DNA of 64,000 bases from an uncultured bacterium (GTDB taxonomy: Bacteria > Cyanobacteriota > Vampirovibrionia > Gastranaerophilales > Gastranaerophilaceae), in assembly GCA_949282215.1 (NCBI GenBank), contig CASDPF010000002.1, positions 1 through 64,000 of the forward strand, written 5' to 3'. The notes beneath the pieces are model-generated. The model searched no databases. It saw only the letters and a program-made list of their open reading frames with translations, and was not told where the DNA came from. Within the stretch, counting starts at the first letter, position 1; the number at the start of each line of letters is the position of its first letter. Shown piece by piece: positions 30,656-44,203 of the stretch. A program made the translations under genes and the position numbers.

Positions 30656-32647
30656 TCACTTAGCACTAACCATTTCTCTAAGCTTTTTTAATTTATCACG
30701 AATTTCCGCTGCTCTTTCAAAGTCAAGGATTTTCGCAGCTTTATGCATATCTTTTTCAAGCTTATCTATCAGTTTAGGTAAATCTTTTTGCTCAATACCT
30801 AAATCAACCATTTCTTCAGCGACAATATCTTCCAAATCACGATAACTTGCGACAAGTGAAAGAAGATTATTTTCAATAGGCTTCTTAATCGTTTGCGGAA
30901 TAATTCCATGCTTTTTATTATAGGCAATTTGAATTTCACGACGACGATTGGTTTCATCAATAGCGGCCTGCATTGAATCGGTAATTTTGTCAGCATACAT
31001 AATAACTTCACCGCAAGCATTACGAGCAGCACGTCCAATAGTTTGAATTAAACTTGTCTCAGATCTTAAAAAACCTTCCTTATCCGCATCCATAATAGCA
31101 ACAAGTGAAACTTCCGGAATATCAAGCCCCTCTCTAAGTAAATTTACACCAATCAGTACATCAAATTCACCCAAACGTAAATCACGCAATATTTCAACAC
31201 GCTCAAGAGATTGAATTTCACTGTGCAAATATCGTACCCTGATGCCTTCCTGAATAAAGAAATCAGTTAAATCCTCAGCCATTCTTTTAGTCAAAGTCGT
31301 AATAAGCACCCTTTCATTCTTATCAGTACGCTTTTGAATTTCATTTTTAAGGTCGTTAATTTGCGTATCAATCGGCCTTACATGAATTTTAGGATCAACA
31401 AGTCCTGTAGGACGGATAATTTGCTCAACCAACTGAGCAGAGGTTTTTCGTTCAAATTCAGCAGGGGTTGCCGAAATATAGATTTTTTGCCCAACACGGG
31501 CAAAAAATTCTTCACTGGTAAGTGGTCTGTTATCTTTTGCACAAGGAAGCCTAAACCCGTATTTTATTAATGTATCTTTTCTGGCAGCATCACCATGACT
31601 CATACCTTTTAACTGAGGCAAAGTTACATGAGATTCATCAACAACAGTCAAAAAATCTCCTTGAAAATAATCTAATAATGTAGCAGGGGGAGAGCCAGGG
31701 GGTCTACGCTCAATAATTCTTGAATAATTTTCAATACCGGAGCAATACCCCATCTCCTTAATCATTTCCATATCATATTTAACGCGTTGTTCAAGCCTTT
31801 GAGCTTCTATCAGCTTATTTTCACTATTAAGTTCGACAAGCCTATGCTGCAATTCTTCACGAATAAGTTTGAGAGTTTCGTCAACATTATCATCATCAGA
31901 CAAATAATGAACTGCAGGATAAATCACTACCTTATCAGGAATTTCAAGAATTTCGCCCGACACATTATCAATTCTTACAATTTTTTCAATCTCATCTCCA
32001 AAGAAATAAATTCTTGTCACAATTTTTTCATAAGCCGGCATAATTTCAACAATATCGCCTCTTACCCTGAATGTAGATCTTTCAAGTACAAGATCATTAC
32101 GGTTATACTGAATTTTAACAAGATGTTTTAAAAGAGCATCTCTATCAACTTCATCTCCGACATTTAACTCTACCGACCCTTTAAAATAATTTTCAGGAAG
32201 CCCTAATCCGTAAATACAACTTACAGATGCGATAATAATTACATCATTACGTTCATAAAGACTTCTTGTCGAATTATGTCGAAGTCTGTCAATTTCTTCA
32301 TTAATAGAAGCAGATTTTTCAATATAAGTATCAGTTCTTGGAATATAAGCCTCAGGCTGATAATAGTCGTAATAACTGATAAAATATTCAACGGCATTTT
32401 CAGGAAACAGCTCTTTAAATTCATTATATAACTGTGCTGCAAGGGTTTTATTATGAGCAATAATTAATGTCGGCTTTTGGACTTGTTCAATAACATTTGC
32501 TATTGTAAAAGTTTTTCCGGACCCTGTAATACCAAGCAAAGTTTGGGCATCATCTCCTCTTAAGATACCATCAGTAAGCTCTTTTATCGCTTTTGGCTGA
32601 TCCCCCGCTGGAGAATATTTTGAATGAATTTTAAATTTCCGTTCCAT
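30656..32647 (-). CDS. uvrB: UvrABC system protein B
   Basis: UvrB verifies DNA lesions delivered by UvrA and recruits the UvrC nuclease. The 663-residue protein has the Walker A GITGSGKT near residue 40, the [20 protein letters not shown] beta-hairpin start, helicase motifs to the QTIGRAARN motif VI, and a C-terminal UVR helical pair ([20 protein letters not shown]). An in-frame TTG 12 codons upstream lacks a ribosome-binding site; [20 protein letters not shown] at 32647 matches the family start. No recA or uvrA is near. It converges with the membrane-protein gene at its 3' end. Confidence 0.96.
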
Positions 32648-32730
32648 ATAATTGAATTCTATATCAAACTCACAGAATAGCAAATTTTTTCATTTACGTA
32701 TATTATTATAAAAGAATAGGAAGTATAAAA

Positions 32731-36469: not shown

Positions 36470-38524
36470 TTATAATCTCATTGAAAGAGTCTCAGCAACT
36501 TTTTTCTCCATAGCATCAGCTTTTTGCAACGCTGCCTGAGCAGGTGTTAAATCAACACCCTGATTAGGGACAATTACACTTTCAGGCGACGGAATATATG
36601 TATAAGTCGGTTTTTGAGATTGCTGAGCATCTTCTTGATGAGGAATTACGTTTTTATATGGATTACCGTTTTTAGTCATTGTAAGAAGATTTGTCGGACT
36701 GTTATTACTTACAAGAGGTTCAGCTTTTTTTGCTTCTGCTGCAGCTTTTTTCTGAGCTTCTGCCTGAGCCATAGCTTGCTGTTGTTTTTGGTATTCTTCT
36801 ACCAGTTTTTGCATTTGAGCTTGTTGATCAGGTGTTAATTGATTTTTAGTTTCTTCTTTATCTTCATCAAGAACTGATTTTGTAGGTTTTCCAAATAAGA
36901 AGTGAGATACTTTTGTTGCATTCTTAGCTAGGAAAGGAACAATAATCAACATGGGAATAGCAATTCTTAACGGTACACCAACAAGGTTTTTAAAGAATAA
37001 GCTGCATCCGTTTGCAAACCAATTACGTTTAGGAATTACACCATTTCCAATATTAATAATGTTCTTACCAAAACCTTTTAAAATACGTGCTATAGGATTT
37101 TTTACATTTGCTTTTAACATATTATTTAGCTCTTTATATCTTTGCTTGTAAATAGCTTTATCAGCCAGCTTACCTGCTTTATAATCAGCTTTAAAAAGTT
37201 TATAAGCCTTATCATATTCTTTTACCTCTTTTGTTGTTAGACCTAAAAATTTAAAACCGCCTATTTTATGCATAGCAACAATACCTAAAGGCATAGCCAT
37301 AAAGTATGTAAAGTCGTTTATAAATCTTTCTGAAAAAGTCTTACCTTTTTCGCCCTTTGGAGCTTTAAATGTATTGATAAGCATATCAGCAAAGATACCT
37401 GCCTGCATTGCAACAGCTAATTTACCACCTGCAAATCTGTTTGTAGTACCTTCTAAGAACCAGCTGAATGCTTTTGGCAAGAATCTGCCAAGTGCAGTCT
37501 TATTACCTTTTCCAAGAGTTGCAATGTATTTATTATGATATTCACTCAATGATACACGTCTGCCGAACAAATGGGATTTTATTTTACCCCATAAGCCGTT
37601 TTTACGCCATATAGAGACTTTTAAATTAGGATCTGCCTTTGATAAAGCCTGCATTACCTCTTTTGGATAATCTATTAATTTATTACCCAATGCCTTATAT
37701 GCTGAAACTGAATTAAATCCTAACTTCTTAACTTTTAGATTATAAGCAAGCTTTTGCAAGCCTTTTAGACCGTTCTTATCAGCTAAATTTTTGATTATAT
37801 CATCACTTACGCCTAAAAGTTTTAATTCTTCTTTCTGAAGTGCAAGGGCCTTTTCATCAAAAGAAAGTCCTTTTAAAGTTTTTACAAAATCATCAATATA
37901 TTTTTGAGAAACTCCGTACTGTTCCAACTTTTGATAAGAGTTATAACGTTTTATCGGAACTTCAAAGAATAATAAATTTAGACTTTGTTTATTATCAGAT
38001 ATAGGTTTCAAAAACTCTTCAAACACTTGTGCCGTATCAGAAGCTAAAAAGCCCTGTAAACCTTTTCCAGGGACCTTTGCAAAATCCCACTCAGGAGCTG
38101 TTGAATGATTTCTTAAAGAATATACTATATCACTTTTTTTAGATAGTTTCCACCATCCGATATTTAATTTTCTTAAAAATGTATCAAATTTTTTACCAAT
38201 ACCGCCCTTGGTCGCATTTGTAGCAACTTTATCACCCCAGGCACCCATTTTACCTAAAATAGTATTTTCATACTTACCTTCCATTTTAGGATTTAATTTA
38301 TCCATGCCCTGAGCTATACAGTACCAAACAGCAGTACCTATACCAAGTGTTGCTAACGGATTACTTTCTTCTCCTGATGAAGCCTTTACACGGTTAGCTA
38401 AATATGAATTATCCACTGACTGTTTTAATTTCTCTCCGTCTACTCCCTGCATTGTCGGAAGCGGTTGTGGAATACCTGCCTGCATTGGAATATTGTTCTT
38501 TAAATTTATATTATTACTAACCAT
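36470..38524 (-). CDS. Large lineage-type hypothetical membrane-associated protein
   Basis: The 684-residue protein has a short polar N-terminus, a basic helical middle, hydrophobic segments near residues 390-410 and 525-545 (VPLRIAIPMLIIVPFLAKNA), and a glutamine- and alanine-rich coiled-coil tail with proline-rich ends. It has no signal peptide. AAGG lies before the ATG. I recognise no family; the style is shared with the protein at 32731. The two neighbouring single-gene units at 38707 and 39042 are of the same uncharacterised class. Confidence 0.5.
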   Translation of the reverse strand: MVSNNINLKNNIPMQAGIPQPLPTMQGVDGEKLKQSVDNSYLANRVKASSGEESNPLATLGIGTAVWYCIAQGMDKLNPKMEGKYENTILGKMGAWGDKVATNATKGGIGKKFDTFLRKLNIGWWKLSKKSDIVYSLRNHSTAPEWDFAKVPGKGLQGFLASDTAQVFEEFLKPISDNKQSLNLLFFEVPIKRYNSYQKLEQYGVSQKYIDDFVKTLKGLSFDEKALALQKEELKLLGVSDDIIKNLADKNGLKGLQKLAYNLKVKKLGFNSVSAYKALGNKLIDYPKEVMQALSKADPNLKVSIWRKNGLWGKIKSHLFGRRVSLSEYHNKYIATLGKGNKTALGRFLPKAFSWFLEGTTNRFAGGKLAVAMQAGIFADMLINTFKAPKGEKGKTFSERFINDFTYFMAMPLGIVAMHKIGGFKFLGLTTKEVKEYDKAYKLFKADYKAGKLADKAIYKQRYKELNNMLKANVKNPIARILKGFGKNIINIGNGVIPKRNWFANGCSLFFKNLVGVPLRIAIPMLIIVPFLAKNATKVSHFLFGKPTKSVLDEDKEETKNQLTPDQQAQMQKLVEEYQKQQQAMAQAEAQKKAAAEAKKAEPLVSNNSPTNLLTMTKNGNPYKNVIPHQEDAQQSQKPTYTYIPSPESVIVPNQGVDLTPAQAALQKADAMEKKVAETLSMRL

Positions 38525-39041: not shown

Positions 39042-40679
39042 TTAAGAAAATGCTTTAAAAGTTCTTTCAACATTCTTTTCTATAGTACCTTTTATTGAAT
39101 CATATTCGGTTTGTAAAGCATTATGTTCAGTATCAAGGAGTTTCATTTGAGTATCATACTCTTTATCTTTAGATTCAATCTCTCTCATACGCTGTTCATA
39201 TATAACCTCAGCTTTAGTCGCAGCCGTTTCATTTTTTTGTTCTACGATATCAGTAACTGAAGAATATATTGTAGACACCCATTGAACATCAGTTAAGCCG
39301 TCACCTTCTACACTTGGAGATGCAAACTCAACTTTTTCAAGAGTAATTACGCCATGCTCAAGAGCAAACTGAAGCCATTCCGGACTATTCATCAACCCGT
39401 CTTCAAGCACGACATAATTTTCATTAACTTTTGAATCAGAAATCCAACCGTCAAAATTTTCATCATATTTATCTAAATTCATATAACCTGATTTGTAATC
39501 GCTTTCGCCATTCATCCTATGCCATAAATTAACATACCATTGTCCTTTATCTTCATCATTCAATTGTCTGACTTTTTTAGTAAGATAAGGTTCAACTTCA
39601 GGTTTAGATGGTTCTGTAGCTTCCCATGCTGCGACATCATTATCATATTCATCTTGTTTAAAGACTTTTACCGGAACTTCTTCTGCCAAAGCATATTTTA
39701 AATCATAAAATACTAAGTGCTTAGCACGATCTAAAATTGCATCATACTCAGGATCTCCTGGAGCTAAATCACCCCTAGCATCAAGTAATTCTTGAGAATC
39801 CCACAACAAATCTACAACTTTTTGAGTTATTGTTTCATTACCATCGCAATTTTGATGATATTCTTCTTCTTGTTTTCCACAACAATTCATACCATCCAAT
39901 TTTTCACGAATTTCAGCCATCGTCTGGGCATTACCGTTTACACCGCCGCTGCCACCTGTTGTCCACCAATGATAAAACGGGTTAGTATTACTTAAATCTT
40001 CTTTGATTTCAAACGTGTGTAAATTGTCAGATGTAGTATAGCTGCCAACATCTAATAAATGGCTTAACACATCACCCAAATGATACAAAGCTTTGGAATC
40101 ACTCATTACGGACGACCAGCACCCCGAATCCGTTCCACTTACGAATTTATCATATAATTCTGAATTTTGAGTAATTTGTGTTTCAATATCCCAATATTTT
40201 TCATCATTTTTATTAGGCTCTTTCGCTTTCCACTCCTGATACATTTTATTATAATCGTCCCAAGCCGCGTCATAAGCCGGGTTTTTAACTTCTACAACCT
40301 TACCTTCATCCAAAGAGCCTAAAAGTCCGTATTTATCTAAAAATTCCTCTAAATTGTCACTTTCTTCAAAGTTTTTACCATCTAATTCACTTACCATAAT
40401 TTGACCTGCAGCATTAACAAGTCCATATTGATTTTTTAGAGGGCCATAATATGAAAGAGATGTACCTGTCAATCTTTCGTAAGTTAAATTACCGCTTTCA
40501 TCGTATGTTGAATACATAAGCTGAGTTTCATTTAGTGCATTTATATATTCTTCACCTACTTTTTCAGTCTGGTCTGCTAAACGAATTTTTGCATTGGAAA
40601 GCTGCATGGTTCTCAATTCATTGTGATTGAGCCTTGCCGTTATTGTTAATAATCTAGCTTGTCCGGCTGCCATTCCCAT
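39042..40679 (-). CDS. Large hypothetical protein with conserved-type N-terminal helix
   Basis: The 545-residue protein begins MGMAAGQARLLTITARLNHN and continues ELRTMQLSNAKI. This amphipathic helix recalls the N-terminal helices of flagellin/hook-associated and secreted needle-type proteins, and similar starts occur in uncharacterised Gastranaerophilales proteins as I recall them. The middle is acidic and glycine-tryptophan rich with a CC pair (DGMNCCGKQEEEY). The C-terminal 80 residues form a coiled coil. No signal peptide is seen. It stands alone with its own terminator. Function is unknown; a secreted or surface role is speculation. Confidence 0.55.
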   Translation of the reverse strand: MGMAAGQARLLTITARLNHNELRTMQLSNAKIRLADQTEKVGEEYINALNETQLMYSTYDESGNLTYERLTGTSLSYYGPLKNQYGLVNAAGQIMVSELDGKNFEESDNLEEFLDKYGLLGSLDEGKVVEVKNPAYDAAWDDYNKMYQEWKAKEPNKNDEKYWDIETQITQNSELYDKFVSGTDSGCWSSVMSDSKALYHLGDVLSHLLDVGSYTTSDNLHTFEIKEDLSNTNPFYHWWTTGGSGGVNGNAQTMAEIREKLDGMNCCGKQEEEYHQNCDGNETITQKVVDLLWDSQELLDARGDLAPGDPEYDAILDRAKHLVFYDLKYALAEEVPVKVFKQDEYDNDVAAWEATEPSKPEVEPYLTKKVRQLNDEDKGQWYVNLWHRMNGESDYKSGYMNLDKYDENFDGWISDSKVNENYVVLEDGLMNSPEWLQFALEHGVITLEKVEFASPSVEGDGLTDVQWVSTIYSSVTDIVEQKNETAATKAEVIYEQRMREIESKDKEYDTQMKLLDTEHNALQTEYDSIKGTIEKNVERTFKAFS

Positions 40680-40799: not shown

Positions 40800-40805
40800 T
40801 TGTAT

Positions 40806-41399
40806 ATGAAGTTATGTTTATACCAAGGTACGTTCAATCCAATACATAATGCACATATTCATGTGGCAGAATATGCCATCAAAAATTTGGACATTGATAA
40901 AATTTTATTTATCCCTGCATTTTTCCCCCCACACAAGGACTATGACAGTAATATCAGTATTGATAGACTTAAAATGGTAAAATCAGCTATTGAAAATTAT
41001 AACAATTTTGAATTGTCAGACATAGAATACCAATTAAAAGGAAAATCTTACACATATAGAACGATTTGTGAACTATATAAAACTTACAATAACATAGAAG
41101 GTAAATTCAAATTTTTGATAGGAACTGATGCTTTTGAAAAAATTGAAAGCTGGTATGAAACAGATAGATTAAAAGAACTTGTTGATTTCGTTGTATTTAT
41201 TAGAGAAAATAATTTTGAGGAAATAAGGTTTGAACATCTTAAAGAAAAAGGGTACAAATTCCAATTTATGCCATTAGAATTTCTTGATATATCATCTACA
41301 GAAATCAGAGAAAAAGTTAAAAACAATCAAGATATTACAAATCTTGTACCTCTAAAAGTAAAGGAATATATTTATAAACATGAATTATACAAAAATTAA
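40806..41399 (+). CDS. nadD: Nicotinate-nucleotide adenylyltransferase
   Basis: NadD joins nicotinate mononucleotide with ATP to make deamido-NAD. The 197-residue protein starts with the nucleotidyltransferase motif GTFNPIHNAHI (about 8-18) and ends with SSTEIREKV, the second nucleotide-binding motif. An in-frame TTG at 40800 is possible, but the ATG at 40806 begins the family-like MKLCLYQGTFNP. There is no ribosome-binding site, in line with a leaderless transcript. It overlaps yqeK by 20 bases. Confidence 0.93.
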   Translation: MKLCLYQGTFNPIHNAHIHVAEYAIKNLDIDKILFIPAFFPPHKDYDSNISIDRLKMVKSAIENYNNFELSDIEYQLKGKSYTYRTICELYKTYNNIEGKFKFLIGTDAFEKIESWYETDRLKELVDFVVFIRENNFEEIRFEHLKEKGYKFQFMPLEFLDISSTEIREKVKNNQDITNLVPLKVKEYIYKHELYKN

Positions 41400-41970
41400 T
41401 GAAATTGAAATCAAAAATTGGTTAAAAGAAAATTTGAATGAAGAAAGATATATACACTCACTAGGCACAGCACAATGTGCAAAAGAATTAGCTGAAAAAT
41501 ATGGACTTAATGAAGAAAAAGCATATATAGCAGGGCTTTTGCATGATTGTGCAAAATGTTTTTCAAGCGAAAAATTACTTGAAATAATAAATAACAATTT
41601 AGAAGTTGAACAGGCAGAAATGCTCAATTACAAAACACTCCACGCTCCGGTAAGTGCCTATTACGCAAAAGAAAAATTTGGAGTAGACGATAAAGAAATA
41701 CTATCTGCAATAAGATGGCATACTCTTGGCAAGTTAGATATGACAGAATTTGAAAAAATTATATTTCTTGCAGACAAAATTGAACCTAATACCAGAGATA
41801 AAGAATATTCTGAAAAAATAATAAATTATCTGAACGAAAAAAACGGACTAAATAAAGCACTTTTGAAATGCTACAAAGAAACCATAAAAAGCCTTGTAAA
41901 AAGAGATTTAAAAATTTGTCTTCTAACTATTGAAATTTATAACAAACTTGAAGATTTAGTAAATGTTTAG
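41380..41970 (+). CDS. yqeK: YqeK-family HD-domain Ap4A hydrolase
   Basis: YqeK splits diadenosine tetraphosphate into two ADP. The 196-residue protein has the HD motif LLHDCAK (about 52-58), an upstream metal-binding His at RYIHSLGTA and later AIRWHTLG and FLADKIEPNTR. The length is normal. It overlaps nadD, an arrangement found in many Firmicutes and Cyanobacteria. There rsfS usually comes third; here it is far away at the start of the window. Confidence 0.92.
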   Translation: MNYTKINEIEIKNWLKENLNEERYIHSLGTAQCAKELAEKYGLNEEKAYIAGLLHDCAKCFSSEKLLEIINNNLEVEQAEMLNYKTLHAPVSAYYAKEKFGVDDKEILSAIRWHTLGKLDMTEFEKIIFLADKIEPNTRDKEYSEKIINYLNEKNGLNKALLKCYKETIKSLVKRDLKICLLTIEIYNKLEDLVNV

Positions 41971-41977
41971 TCATAAT

Positions 41978-42009
41978 TTGACATGTTTCAGGCATGTTCA
42001 TGATACAAT
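41978..42009 (+). promoter_or_regulatory. Candidate promoter with palindrome before the HerA-like gene
   Basis: TTGACA (41978-41983) is followed at 20 bases by TACAAT (42004-42009), longer than ideal. In the spacer ACATG (41981-41985) and CATGT (41993-41997) form an inverted repeat that could be an operator. Confidence 0.35.
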
Positions 42010-42034
42010 CAGAATATTGAATGAGGAATTGTAG

Positions 42035-44203
42035 ATGAAAGTTCTGGAAATAAAGAATAACCTAGTTAAAATATCATATAATAGAGAAGATAATCTTTTA
42101 CTGTCAGGTTTTGTTGTAATAGAAGATGCACAAACACCTTATGTAGCTCAAATTCTTAGTTTAAAAGCCGATAACGGAATTAATTATGCAATAGTAAAAC
42201 TATTATTTACATTTGATGAAGAAGGTATAGTAAAAAACTATGATGGTACAGTGCCTGCACTTGATGCTGATGTAACAAGACTTTCATCTGATGAACTTTT
42301 AGATATTATGCCTGTCAATAATCCTATTGAAATTGGATCTCTTGCAAATCAAGATATAGATTTAAAAGTAGACAGAGCACTCCTTGAGCAAAATTTATTA
42401 ATATGCTCTGAAAATAAAGAAAACACAAATACAATAATTGAAAATCTTGTATTCCAATTAAGCACAGATAATAGAAAATCCGTAATATTTGACGAGGATG
42501 GACAATTTTCGGGACAAAAACTCACATTTGGAACTGATTTCAAATTACCGTTAAATTATAATACCATTAATTTTATCTATGAGCATGACTTAAATAATAT
42601 AGAACCGACAAGCAAAGCTCTAATTCAGGATATATTTCTTGAAGTACAAGAATATTCAAAGACTGTCTTGGACAAATTTATTCCGTTTGACACATTTATA
42701 AGTGTCGTAGACCAACAATACAAAACTACAGGCTTAACCGAACTTGTATTACTAAAAAATAAATTACTTAAGTATAAAGAGGAAAATGTCTTTGCTCAAA
42801 ATGCAAAAGAAATACACTCTCTACGCAGTGCAATTCGTGCAAACTTAACAAATATCATTGATATATCCTCCGCAAGTGATATTTTACAAAATGAAATTAT
42901 CAAATATGTATATGATTCAATAGATGAAATGGATTTGTTTGTATATTCATTTGTACCGCTAAATAATGATAATGCGGACAAAAAACTTATAAGACATTTT
43001 CTTACCAAAAATAAAATATATACAACAATTAATTGCAGTCATAACTTTAAATACTTGTATGAATTGAAAGAACGTGCAAAGAACCTTATATTATTTGCAC
43101 CTCAGACACTACAGCATGATTTTGCAACATATAACACATTTTTAAATAAATTAAATAATGATGAATTCATAATATATGGAAAAGCGACACAAAATGTACC
43201 ATTCATAATAGAACTTTCATCATTATTGGAAGCTGAAGAAGAACCTGAAACCGAAACGCTTCGGGTATCAGAAGAAAATCATCAGGAAATTGAAGAATTT
43301 GAAGTCGTACAAGAACCGGTAAAAGATGACTTTTCTGAAGAATCAAACTCTTATTCTTATGAAACATTAAATACAGATGACATTATTGAAGAAGATACTC
43401 AAGAAGAAAAAATAAATGATGTCACACCTGAAGAAACTTCAGCAAATATAGAAACAGAGTCCGAACCTGAAAAGGAAATTTCAGAAGAAATTCAACCTGA
43501 AATAATAAGCGGAATCATAGATAAAGAAATAGAATTAGAAAATGCAAGTACTACTTATGGGGATGATTTGGAGGAAGTACAAGAAGAATATACCGAAGAA
43601 CTTCCGGATGTATTTAAAAATCCTCCACAAGAAGATTTATTAAAAGAAGCACCTTTAGAAATTGAAGAGAATGTTCCCCCTGCAGTATCTAATAGTTTTA
43701 TAGAAGGAAATGTTTTAGAAGAAAGTGATGAGCAGCCTGCTCCAAATATTGAATATAATGAAGAAAGTCTACCTGTAATTTCAGACGATGAAATTCAAAA
43801 AAAAGTAGATGAAGAAATGAAAGAACCGCCAATAGCTGATAATGCGGCAGAAGTAGTTGATGAGATAATGTTCTCTGAACCTGCGAAAGAAATTCCGTCA
43901 ATAGAAGAAGAACTTAGTGAAGATACATTAACTGAAGATGACCTAAATTTTATAGAAGATGTTAATATCGGAGCAACCGAAGTGACAGATATTCCGGATT
44001 TACCTATTTATCCTGCAGAGAGCCCTAGCACTTCAGACACCCCATCCTATGAACAAGGGGATAGAGTAACTCACCCGAAATATGGTGAAGGTGTAGTTGA
44101 AAAAATGATAAAATACGGGAATAAAACACTTTGCTCAATAAATTTTGCAAATATTGGCAGAAGACTATTGGATCCTGCTATTTCTGACCTGCAAAAATTA
44201 TAA
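42035..44203 (+). CDS. HerA-like protein with broken P-loop and PcrA-type C-terminal domain
   Basis: The 722-residue protein opens with a beta-rich HAS-barrel-like domain (1-100) and a RecA-like part as in HerA/VirB4-type ATPases. The expected G-x-x-G-x-G-K-S P-loop is SENKENTNT (125-133), lacking glycines and lysine, while the Walker B-like SVIFDEDGQF (149-158) remains. An acidic, glutamate-rich linker spans about 405-665. The last 50 residues, GDRVTHPKYGEGVVEKM and beyond, match the UvrD/PcrA C-terminal Tudor-like domain that in PcrA binds RNA polymerase. The gene starts with a GAGGAA site. A role in transcription-coupled processes is inference. Confidence 0.65.
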   Translation: MKVLEIKNNLVKISYNREDNLLLSGFVVIEDAQTPYVAQILSLKADNGINYAIVKLLFTFDEEGIVKNYDGTVPALDADVTRLSSDELLDIMPVNNPIEIGSLANQDIDLKVDRALLEQNLLICSENKENTNTIIENLVFQLSTDNRKSVIFDEDGQFSGQKLTFGTDFKLPLNYNTINFIYEHDLNNIEPTSKALIQDIFLEVQEYSKTVLDKFIPFDTFISVVDQQYKTTGLTELVLLKNKLLKYKEENVFAQNAKEIHSLRSAIRANLTNIIDISSASDILQNEIIKYVYDSIDEMDLFVYSFVPLNNDNADKKLIRHFLTKNKIYTTINCSHNFKYLYELKERAKNLILFAPQTLQHDFATYNTFLNKLNNDEFIIYGKATQNVPFIIELSSLLEAEEEPETETLRVSEENHQEIEEFEVVQEPVKDDFSEESNSYSYETLNTDDIIEEDTQEEKINDVTPEETSANIETESEPEKEISEEIQPEIISGIIDKEIELENASTTYGDDLEEVQEEYTEELPDVFKNPPQEDLLKEAPLEIEENVPPAVSNSFIEGNVLEESDEQPAPNIEYNEESLPVISDDEIQKKVDEEMKEPPIADNAAEVVDEIMFSEPAKEIPSIEEELSEDTLTEDDLNFIEDVNIGATEVTDIPDLPIYPAESPSTSDTPSYEQGDRVTHPKYGEGVVEKMIKYGNKTLCSINFANIGRRLLDPAISDLQKL

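Follow-up and report, generated by a model that had tools for sequence, protein, structure and literature searches.

HerA-family proteins are ATP-driven DNA pumps. What does a protein do that has the fold of HerA, no site for ATP and, at its C-terminus, the docking domain of the helicases PcrA and UvrD? This question is raised by an open reading frame of 722 amino acids in a 64,000-nucleotide stretch of DNA (the window) from the 2.2 Mb genome of an uncultured bacterium of the order Gastranaerophilales. We are confident of its anatomy, that is, a HerA-fold pseudo-ATPase joined by an acidic tether to a PcrA/UvrD Tudor domain and conserved through one order. As to function, we tentatively propose an ATP-independent scaffold that would be docked on UvrB, a reading to which we give somewhat less than even confidence. 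The architecture is new while its parts are known, and we found no description of such a protein in the literature searched, which was open-access only.

A conserved gene of the Gastranaerophilales

The gene and the elements in front of it are as follows.

42035-44203, plus strand: whole open reading frame, 722 amino acids, ATG start
42023-42028, plus strand: ribosome-binding site GAGGAA, seen in the sequence, its GAGG kept in many orthologues
41992-42009, plus strand: extended -10 promoter element GCATGTTCATGATACAAT, conserved upstream, about 43 nt before the start codon

The open reading frame is a real, conserved gene. Its pattern is far above chance, because 57 of 59 genomes of relatives (its own genome counted) have an orthologue and because of the dN/dS values of its parts. 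Measured against an orthologue of 77% identity, dN/dS is 0.033 for the HerA-like core, 0.50 for the linker and 0.027 for the tail, ratios that are rough with dS near or above 1 in this pair. Purifying selection on the two folded parts is strong. In a phylum-wide draw the protein was matched in 130 of 292 genomes, and among the matches listed it is confined to Gastranaerophilales, with none in the class relatives or Cyanobacteria sampled; those that carry a name, which reach 93% identity, are MAGs assigned to Gastranaerophilales and Scatousia. No match was seen in G009, G031 and G119, three further genomes of this order, and therefore the gene may not be strictly essential. Weak Pfam matches of the protein to UNC80_N, SepF and Dynamin_M were taken as chance.

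Upstream on the same strand lie nadD (40800-41399) and yqeK (41380-41970), the latter separated from the gene by a 64-bp gap. We considered gene context as a clue to function and rejected it: only the close family has nadD-yqeK ahead of the gene, its neighbours in other families of the order are unrelated housekeeping genes, and neither arrangement gives a functional hint. Despite sitting behind nadD-yqeK, the gene seems to have its own promoter, as judged from an upstream element that is both conserved and gene-specific. Of 79 orthologues, 78 have this element in a permissive pattern, of a kind that favours finding something. In its exact form, CATGTTYATGNTANAAT, it is seen once in the window and 38 times in related loci totalling 953 kb, in every case upstream of an orthologue of the gene. 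The element contains an inverted repeat, CATG-TT-CATG, that may be an operator. SOS control was also considered and set aside, since inspection of the conserved element revealed no recognisable LexA box. Further upstream are two large open reading frames of unknown function on the minus strand (36470-38524, 684 amino acids; 39042-40679, 545 amino acids), the second of which has homologues at the same place in close relatives.

A predicted HerA fold with a degenerate nucleotide site

The N-terminal 400 residues comprise the following parts.

42035-42319, plus strand: HAS-barrel-like N-terminal domain, residues 1-95, beta strands (AlphaFold secondary structure, HerA fold matches)
42323-43234, plus strand: degenerate RecA-like HerA core, residues 97-400 (profile, AlphaFold, Foldseek, hhalign)
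42557-42838, plus strand: helix bundle inserted after beta-2, residues 175-268 (AlphaFold)

The initial annotation had read this part as following HerA, and the predicted structure, checked for the fold, has it. An AlphaFold2 model of residues 1-412 built from 81 sequences reached a pLDDT of 89 and a pTM of 0.86. When this model was compared to the PDB with Foldseek, the 34 best matches were all HerA, as were 45 of the best 50 by name, with a best E-value of 2.2e-16 and query TM scores of 0.56-0.74. The rmsd against HerA is 5-10 A over long fold alignments, which would be expected if the domains are set at a different angle. The elements follow one another as a beta-rich domain, beta-1, the P-loop position, alpha-1, beta-2, a helix bundle (modelled helices 175-185, 191-208, 218-232, 235-249 and 257-268) and the remaining core strands, and the HerA of Deinococcus has a matching order of structural elements (PMC9960219). 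Going by the model, residues 1-400 are a complete HerA architecture.

Profile comparisons agree with the fold search. Searched against the PDB, a profile of 30 orthologues gave one significant match, HerA 4d2i (E = 3.5e-4). Five of the same 30 proteins match the Pfam family DUF87 (PF01935, "Helicase HerA, central domain") by themselves, with E-values down to 9.6e-5; the window protein on its own has no PF01935 match. An hhalign comparison to the intact HerA proteins of three genomes of the order spans 374 columns and reaches the last strands, where LNKLNNDEFIIYGKATQNVPFIIEL of the pseudo-HerA is aligned with LPTLQPGQCLIVGDASPIPAIIQLE of the intact HerA; its E-value is modest (6e-4), since the intact proteins make a thin profile. 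Small HerA alignments contain few sequences, which keeps the hhalign probabilities against them low (29-63%), and the fold search is the stronger test.

Three segments of the core bear on nucleotide binding.

42404-42430, plus strand: dead P-loop CSENKENTN, residues 124-132, with T131 in place of the Walker A lysine (alignment to 4d2i and orthologues)
42482-42502, plus strand: strand beta-2, VIFDEDG, residues 150-156, with the invariant D153 (alignments; D220 of drHerA, PMC9960219)
42941-42958, plus strand: position of the Walker B strand, VYSFVP, residues 303-308, acid pair absent (AlphaFold)

In the HMMER alignment to 4d2i, the Walker A sequence ATGSGKS falls on E126-N-K-E-N-T131-N132. In all 81 orthologues the place of the Walker A lysine is taken by T, S or I, and in 78 of them N stands in place of the glycine before it. 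In the smaller alignment of 30 proteins, three divergent members have a K in the lysine column and lack the flanking glycines. Across the 81 orthologues we found neither a Walker A motif (GxxGxGK[ST]) nor a Walker B acid pair (D/E) at residues 303-308. The P-loop position does read SENKENTNT, as first noted, and the claim that it cannot bind nucleotide in the usual way is supported by the loss of the Walker A lysine and of the Walker B acids. The "Walker B-like strand" of the initial annotation needs correction: the strand VIFDxDG (150-156) is real, but it is beta-2, and the true Walker B position is at 303-308. D153 of beta-2 is invariant in all alignments. In drHerA of Deinococcus the ASCE acid on beta-2 is D220 (PMC9960219), to which D153 would correspond by position. 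The beta-2 acid has been retained while both Walker motifs have been lost. Judged from these alignments, the nucleotide site of the HerA-like part is dead in all orthologues checked.

An acidic linker and a PcrA/UvrD-type Tudor tail

The remainder of the protein contains four features.

43235-44047, plus strand: acidic linker, residues 401-671, presumed disordered (composition, alignment)
43928-43954, plus strand: short motif LTEDDLNFI, residues 632-640, conserved among orthologues
44000-44020, plus strand: short motif LPIYPAE, residues 656-662, consensus VP[VI]YPAE, conserved among orthologues
44048-44200, plus strand: PcrA/UvrD-type Tudor domain, residues 672-722 (Pfam, PDB profile, AlphaFold, Foldseek)

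The linker is long and acidic, as had been noted, with 90 D/E against 11 K/R and a pI of about 4 over residues 401-668. Its length in relatives is 180-450 amino acids, and in 77 of 78 orthologues the VP[VI]YPAE motif is followed 17-25 residues later by the Tudor core.

The tail is indeed a Tudor domain of the PcrA/UvrD type. Each of the 30 tails analysed scores best in Pfam with PcrA_UvrD_tudor (PF21196); CarD_TRCF_RID (PF02559) comes second and also matches all 30. For PF21196 the isolated window tail scores 24.8 bits, above the curated cut-off of 23.9, and 19.1 bits when scanned inside the full protein. The PF02559 cut-off of 23 is not reached by the window protein at full length (14.3 bits) or by its tail (19.8 bits). 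A profile of the tails matches UvrD chains in the PDB (5.5e-7 and weaker). AlphaFold predicts a four-strand barrel (pLDDT 71), for which Foldseek ranks UvrD/PcrA Tudors 1 to 6 and a complex of the UvrD C-terminal domain (CTD) with UvrB (7egt) at 14; CarD and Mfd come after UvrD/PcrA, and generic Tudor domains are far behind. The assignment of the last 50 residues to the PcrA/UvrD CTD is therefore upheld by Pfam, PDB profile and fold, also when generic SH3/Tudor domains are considered as the alternative. The position of R710 is basic (R or K) in 30 of 30 tails, and from alignment to the PcrA sequence it is probably the position of K727 in Bacillus subtilis PcrA.

PcrA-sized frames across the phylum match the tail profile, with a match in 138 of 146 genomes, and the window tail is 48% identical to the PcrA tail of a class-level relative. 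The tail is for these reasons probably a copy of the PcrA tail of the same phylum. A 905-amino-acid open frame in a class relative, matched by the tail, was considered as a longer orthologue and proved to be PcrA itself.

UvrB as a candidate docking partner

A possible partner of the tail is encoded in the same window.

30656-32683, minus strand: UvrB open reading frame
31946-31972, minus strand: IDNVSGEIL, the helicase interaction motif of UvrB, at which the tail is proposed to dock (motif definition from PMC8318588)

The CTD of PcrA/UvrD binds RNA polymerase (PMC8318588, PMC3797733). The Tudor of B. subtilis PcrA recognises a hairpin motif, [VIL]DxxTGE[VIL][VILT], that is found in the SI1 insertion of RpoB and in UvrB; the two partners compete for the Tudor, and PcrA K727 is critical (PMC8318588). 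A crystal structure of the UvrD CTD with UvrB exists (7egt). In our sample, a relaxed form of the motif, I[DN]..[ST]GE[IV][LIV], is present in 30 of 30 UvrB sequences. RpoB of the window's genome has no SI1 insertion and no strict helicase interaction motif, its nearest look-alike being VNRDSGEIK near the N-terminus. A 192-amino-acid RpoB fragment over the SI1 site found a match in 50 genomes, which include the own genome and a class relative; in 49 of these it aligned at full length and without insertion, and in the remaining genome over 182 residues. Because RpoB of this lineage lacks the motif and UvrB retains it, we prefer UvrB over RNA polymerase as the likely partner of the tail. The initial annotation had taken the tail to bind RNA polymerase, an inference that is weak here, where the known docking hairpin is missing. 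Its wider suggestion, a repair or transcription factor of a new kind, still stands, with repair favoured. Conservation of the UvrB motif could also be due to UvrA binding, or to PcrA alone, and is not specific evidence for the 722-residue protein. About ten other proteins of the genome, some of them MutS-like or MnmE-like, bear look-alike motifs.

The same comparison bears on PcrA. A PcrA with a Tudor tail (L175, G000:C8:82000-90000) is kept in the order though its RpoB lacks the SI1 hairpin motif. That the PcrA Tudor and the UvrB motif both persist in a lineage whose RpoB lacks the motif suggests that UvrB is the main partner of the PcrA tail here. More generally, these bacteria conserve the PcrA Tudor without having the known docking hairpin in their RNA polymerase, and hence UvrB, or another partner, may be what maintains it.

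Proposed function and alternative explanations

We propose that this non-catalytic relative of the HerA family serves as a scaffold. Its Tudor would dock on proteins that bear the helicase interaction motif, UvrB foremost, and the flexible tether would hold the HerA-fold body, perhaps still oligomeric, near UvrB at damaged DNA. There the scaffold could compete with PcrA, or replace it, in recruitment. Alternatively, it might display a partner on its HAS-barrel face, where HerA holds NurA. In either case the outcome would be an adaptor or regulator of nucleotide excision repair that uses no ATP. A more specific version, in which a HerA ring minus its ATPase and plus a copied PcrA tail acts order-wide as a lineage-specific repair adaptor, competing with PcrA for UvrB and tuning excision repair in non-photosynthetic relatives of cyanobacteria, is a possibility that we regard as somewhat doubtful. 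It would make the protein a pseudo-translocase with the job of a scaffold.

A scaffold of the same build could also act outside repair and transcription, its HerA-like body and Tudor having separate partners (in cell division, at the surface or in chromosome organisation, for instance), and the likeness to PcrA tails would then be uninformative on those partners. The housekeeping neighbours, the near-universal presence in the order and the conserved promoter of its own fit such a role, as do the other proteins of the genome with look-alike motifs. However, neither the basic residue nor any of the PcrA Tudor core has been lost from the tail, at a dN/dS of 0.03, which is what one would expect were a surface of the same kind still being read, and we consider a role outside repair and transcription rather unlikely. 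Less likely again is a factor associated with RNA polymerase, in which the tail would sit on the polymerase, perhaps on the beta-1 lobe as in CarD and Mfd, and place the pseudo-HerA on the transcription complex. The documented binding of the PcrA/UvrD CTD to RNA polymerase (PMC8318588, PMC3797733) speaks for it, together with the match of CarD_TRCF_RID to every tail, although below the Pfam cut-off for that of the window, and the place of CarD and Mfd next after UvrD in the fold ranking. Against it are the absence of the documented RpoB docking hairpin (the SI1 motif) from the order and the preference for PcrA/UvrD over CarD/Mfd in both sequence and fold.

Two further explanations concern the HerA-like body. 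A pseudo-HerA ring positioned by the tail might encircle DNA without ATP, as a clamp or a brake on translocation. The body has the complete HerA architecture, helix bundle included, and an invariant lysine, K316, just beyond the Walker B strand, which by its inferred position would be near the DNA-contacting loop of HerA. But the N-terminal part is net acidic (charge of about -19) and the segment after Walker B is shorter than in HerA, and we think a clamp very improbable. An active ATPase with an unconventional site has the invariant D153 in its favour; with the glycine-rich loop, the lysine and the Walker B acids all missing in 81 orthologues, we give it hardly any credence. Whatever its partner, a HerA fold without an ATP site, joined to a PcrA/UvrD docking domain, is strongly selected through nearly a whole order of gut bacteria.

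Relation to known proteins

The protein resembles the hexameric DNA translocase HerA (DUF87; HerA-NurA and the SIR2-HerA and DUF4297-HerA defence systems) in its HAS-barrel, RecA-like core, helix bundle and C-terminal strands, and it keeps the position of the ASCE acid. It differs from HerA in having neither Walker A nor the Walker B acids, in the shorter segment after Walker B, in its fusion to a linker and a Tudor and in the lack of a nuclease or SIR2 neighbour; neither NurA nor a DUF87 protein above the cut-off was found in the genome. With the PcrA/UvrD Tudor (PF21196) it shares sequence, fold, the basic residue that is critical and the long flexible linker ahead of the domain, whereas its Tudor is carried by a pseudo-HerA and not by an SF1 helicase, and the RpoB docking hairpin is absent from its lineage. 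The RNA-polymerase-interacting domains of CarD and Mfd (PF02559) have the same Tudor superfold and a weak sequence match, but rank below PcrA/UvrD for this tail by sequence and by fold.

Other HerA proteins occur in the phylum. Class relatives and nearly all of the sampled Cyanobacteria have a HerA with the Walker A sequence GKSGTGKS (L298-L301), which is missing from most Gastranaerophilales genomes; these have the pseudo-HerA instead. This distribution is suggestive of descent, but at an E-value of about 0.05 the profiles show no real similarity and we do not claim vertical descent. A role of the pseudo-HerA in anti-phage defence was considered and rejected, as PADLOC matched the gene to no defence system and the intact HerA genes of three genomes of the order are located elsewhere. 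These intact proteins (L306 in G269:C32, L307 in G170:C2 and L308 in G273:C27) are 586-592 amino acids long with a Walker A of GSTG[SA]GKS, and each of their genes directly follows that of a 369- or 436-amino-acid protein, like two-gene HerA defence systems.
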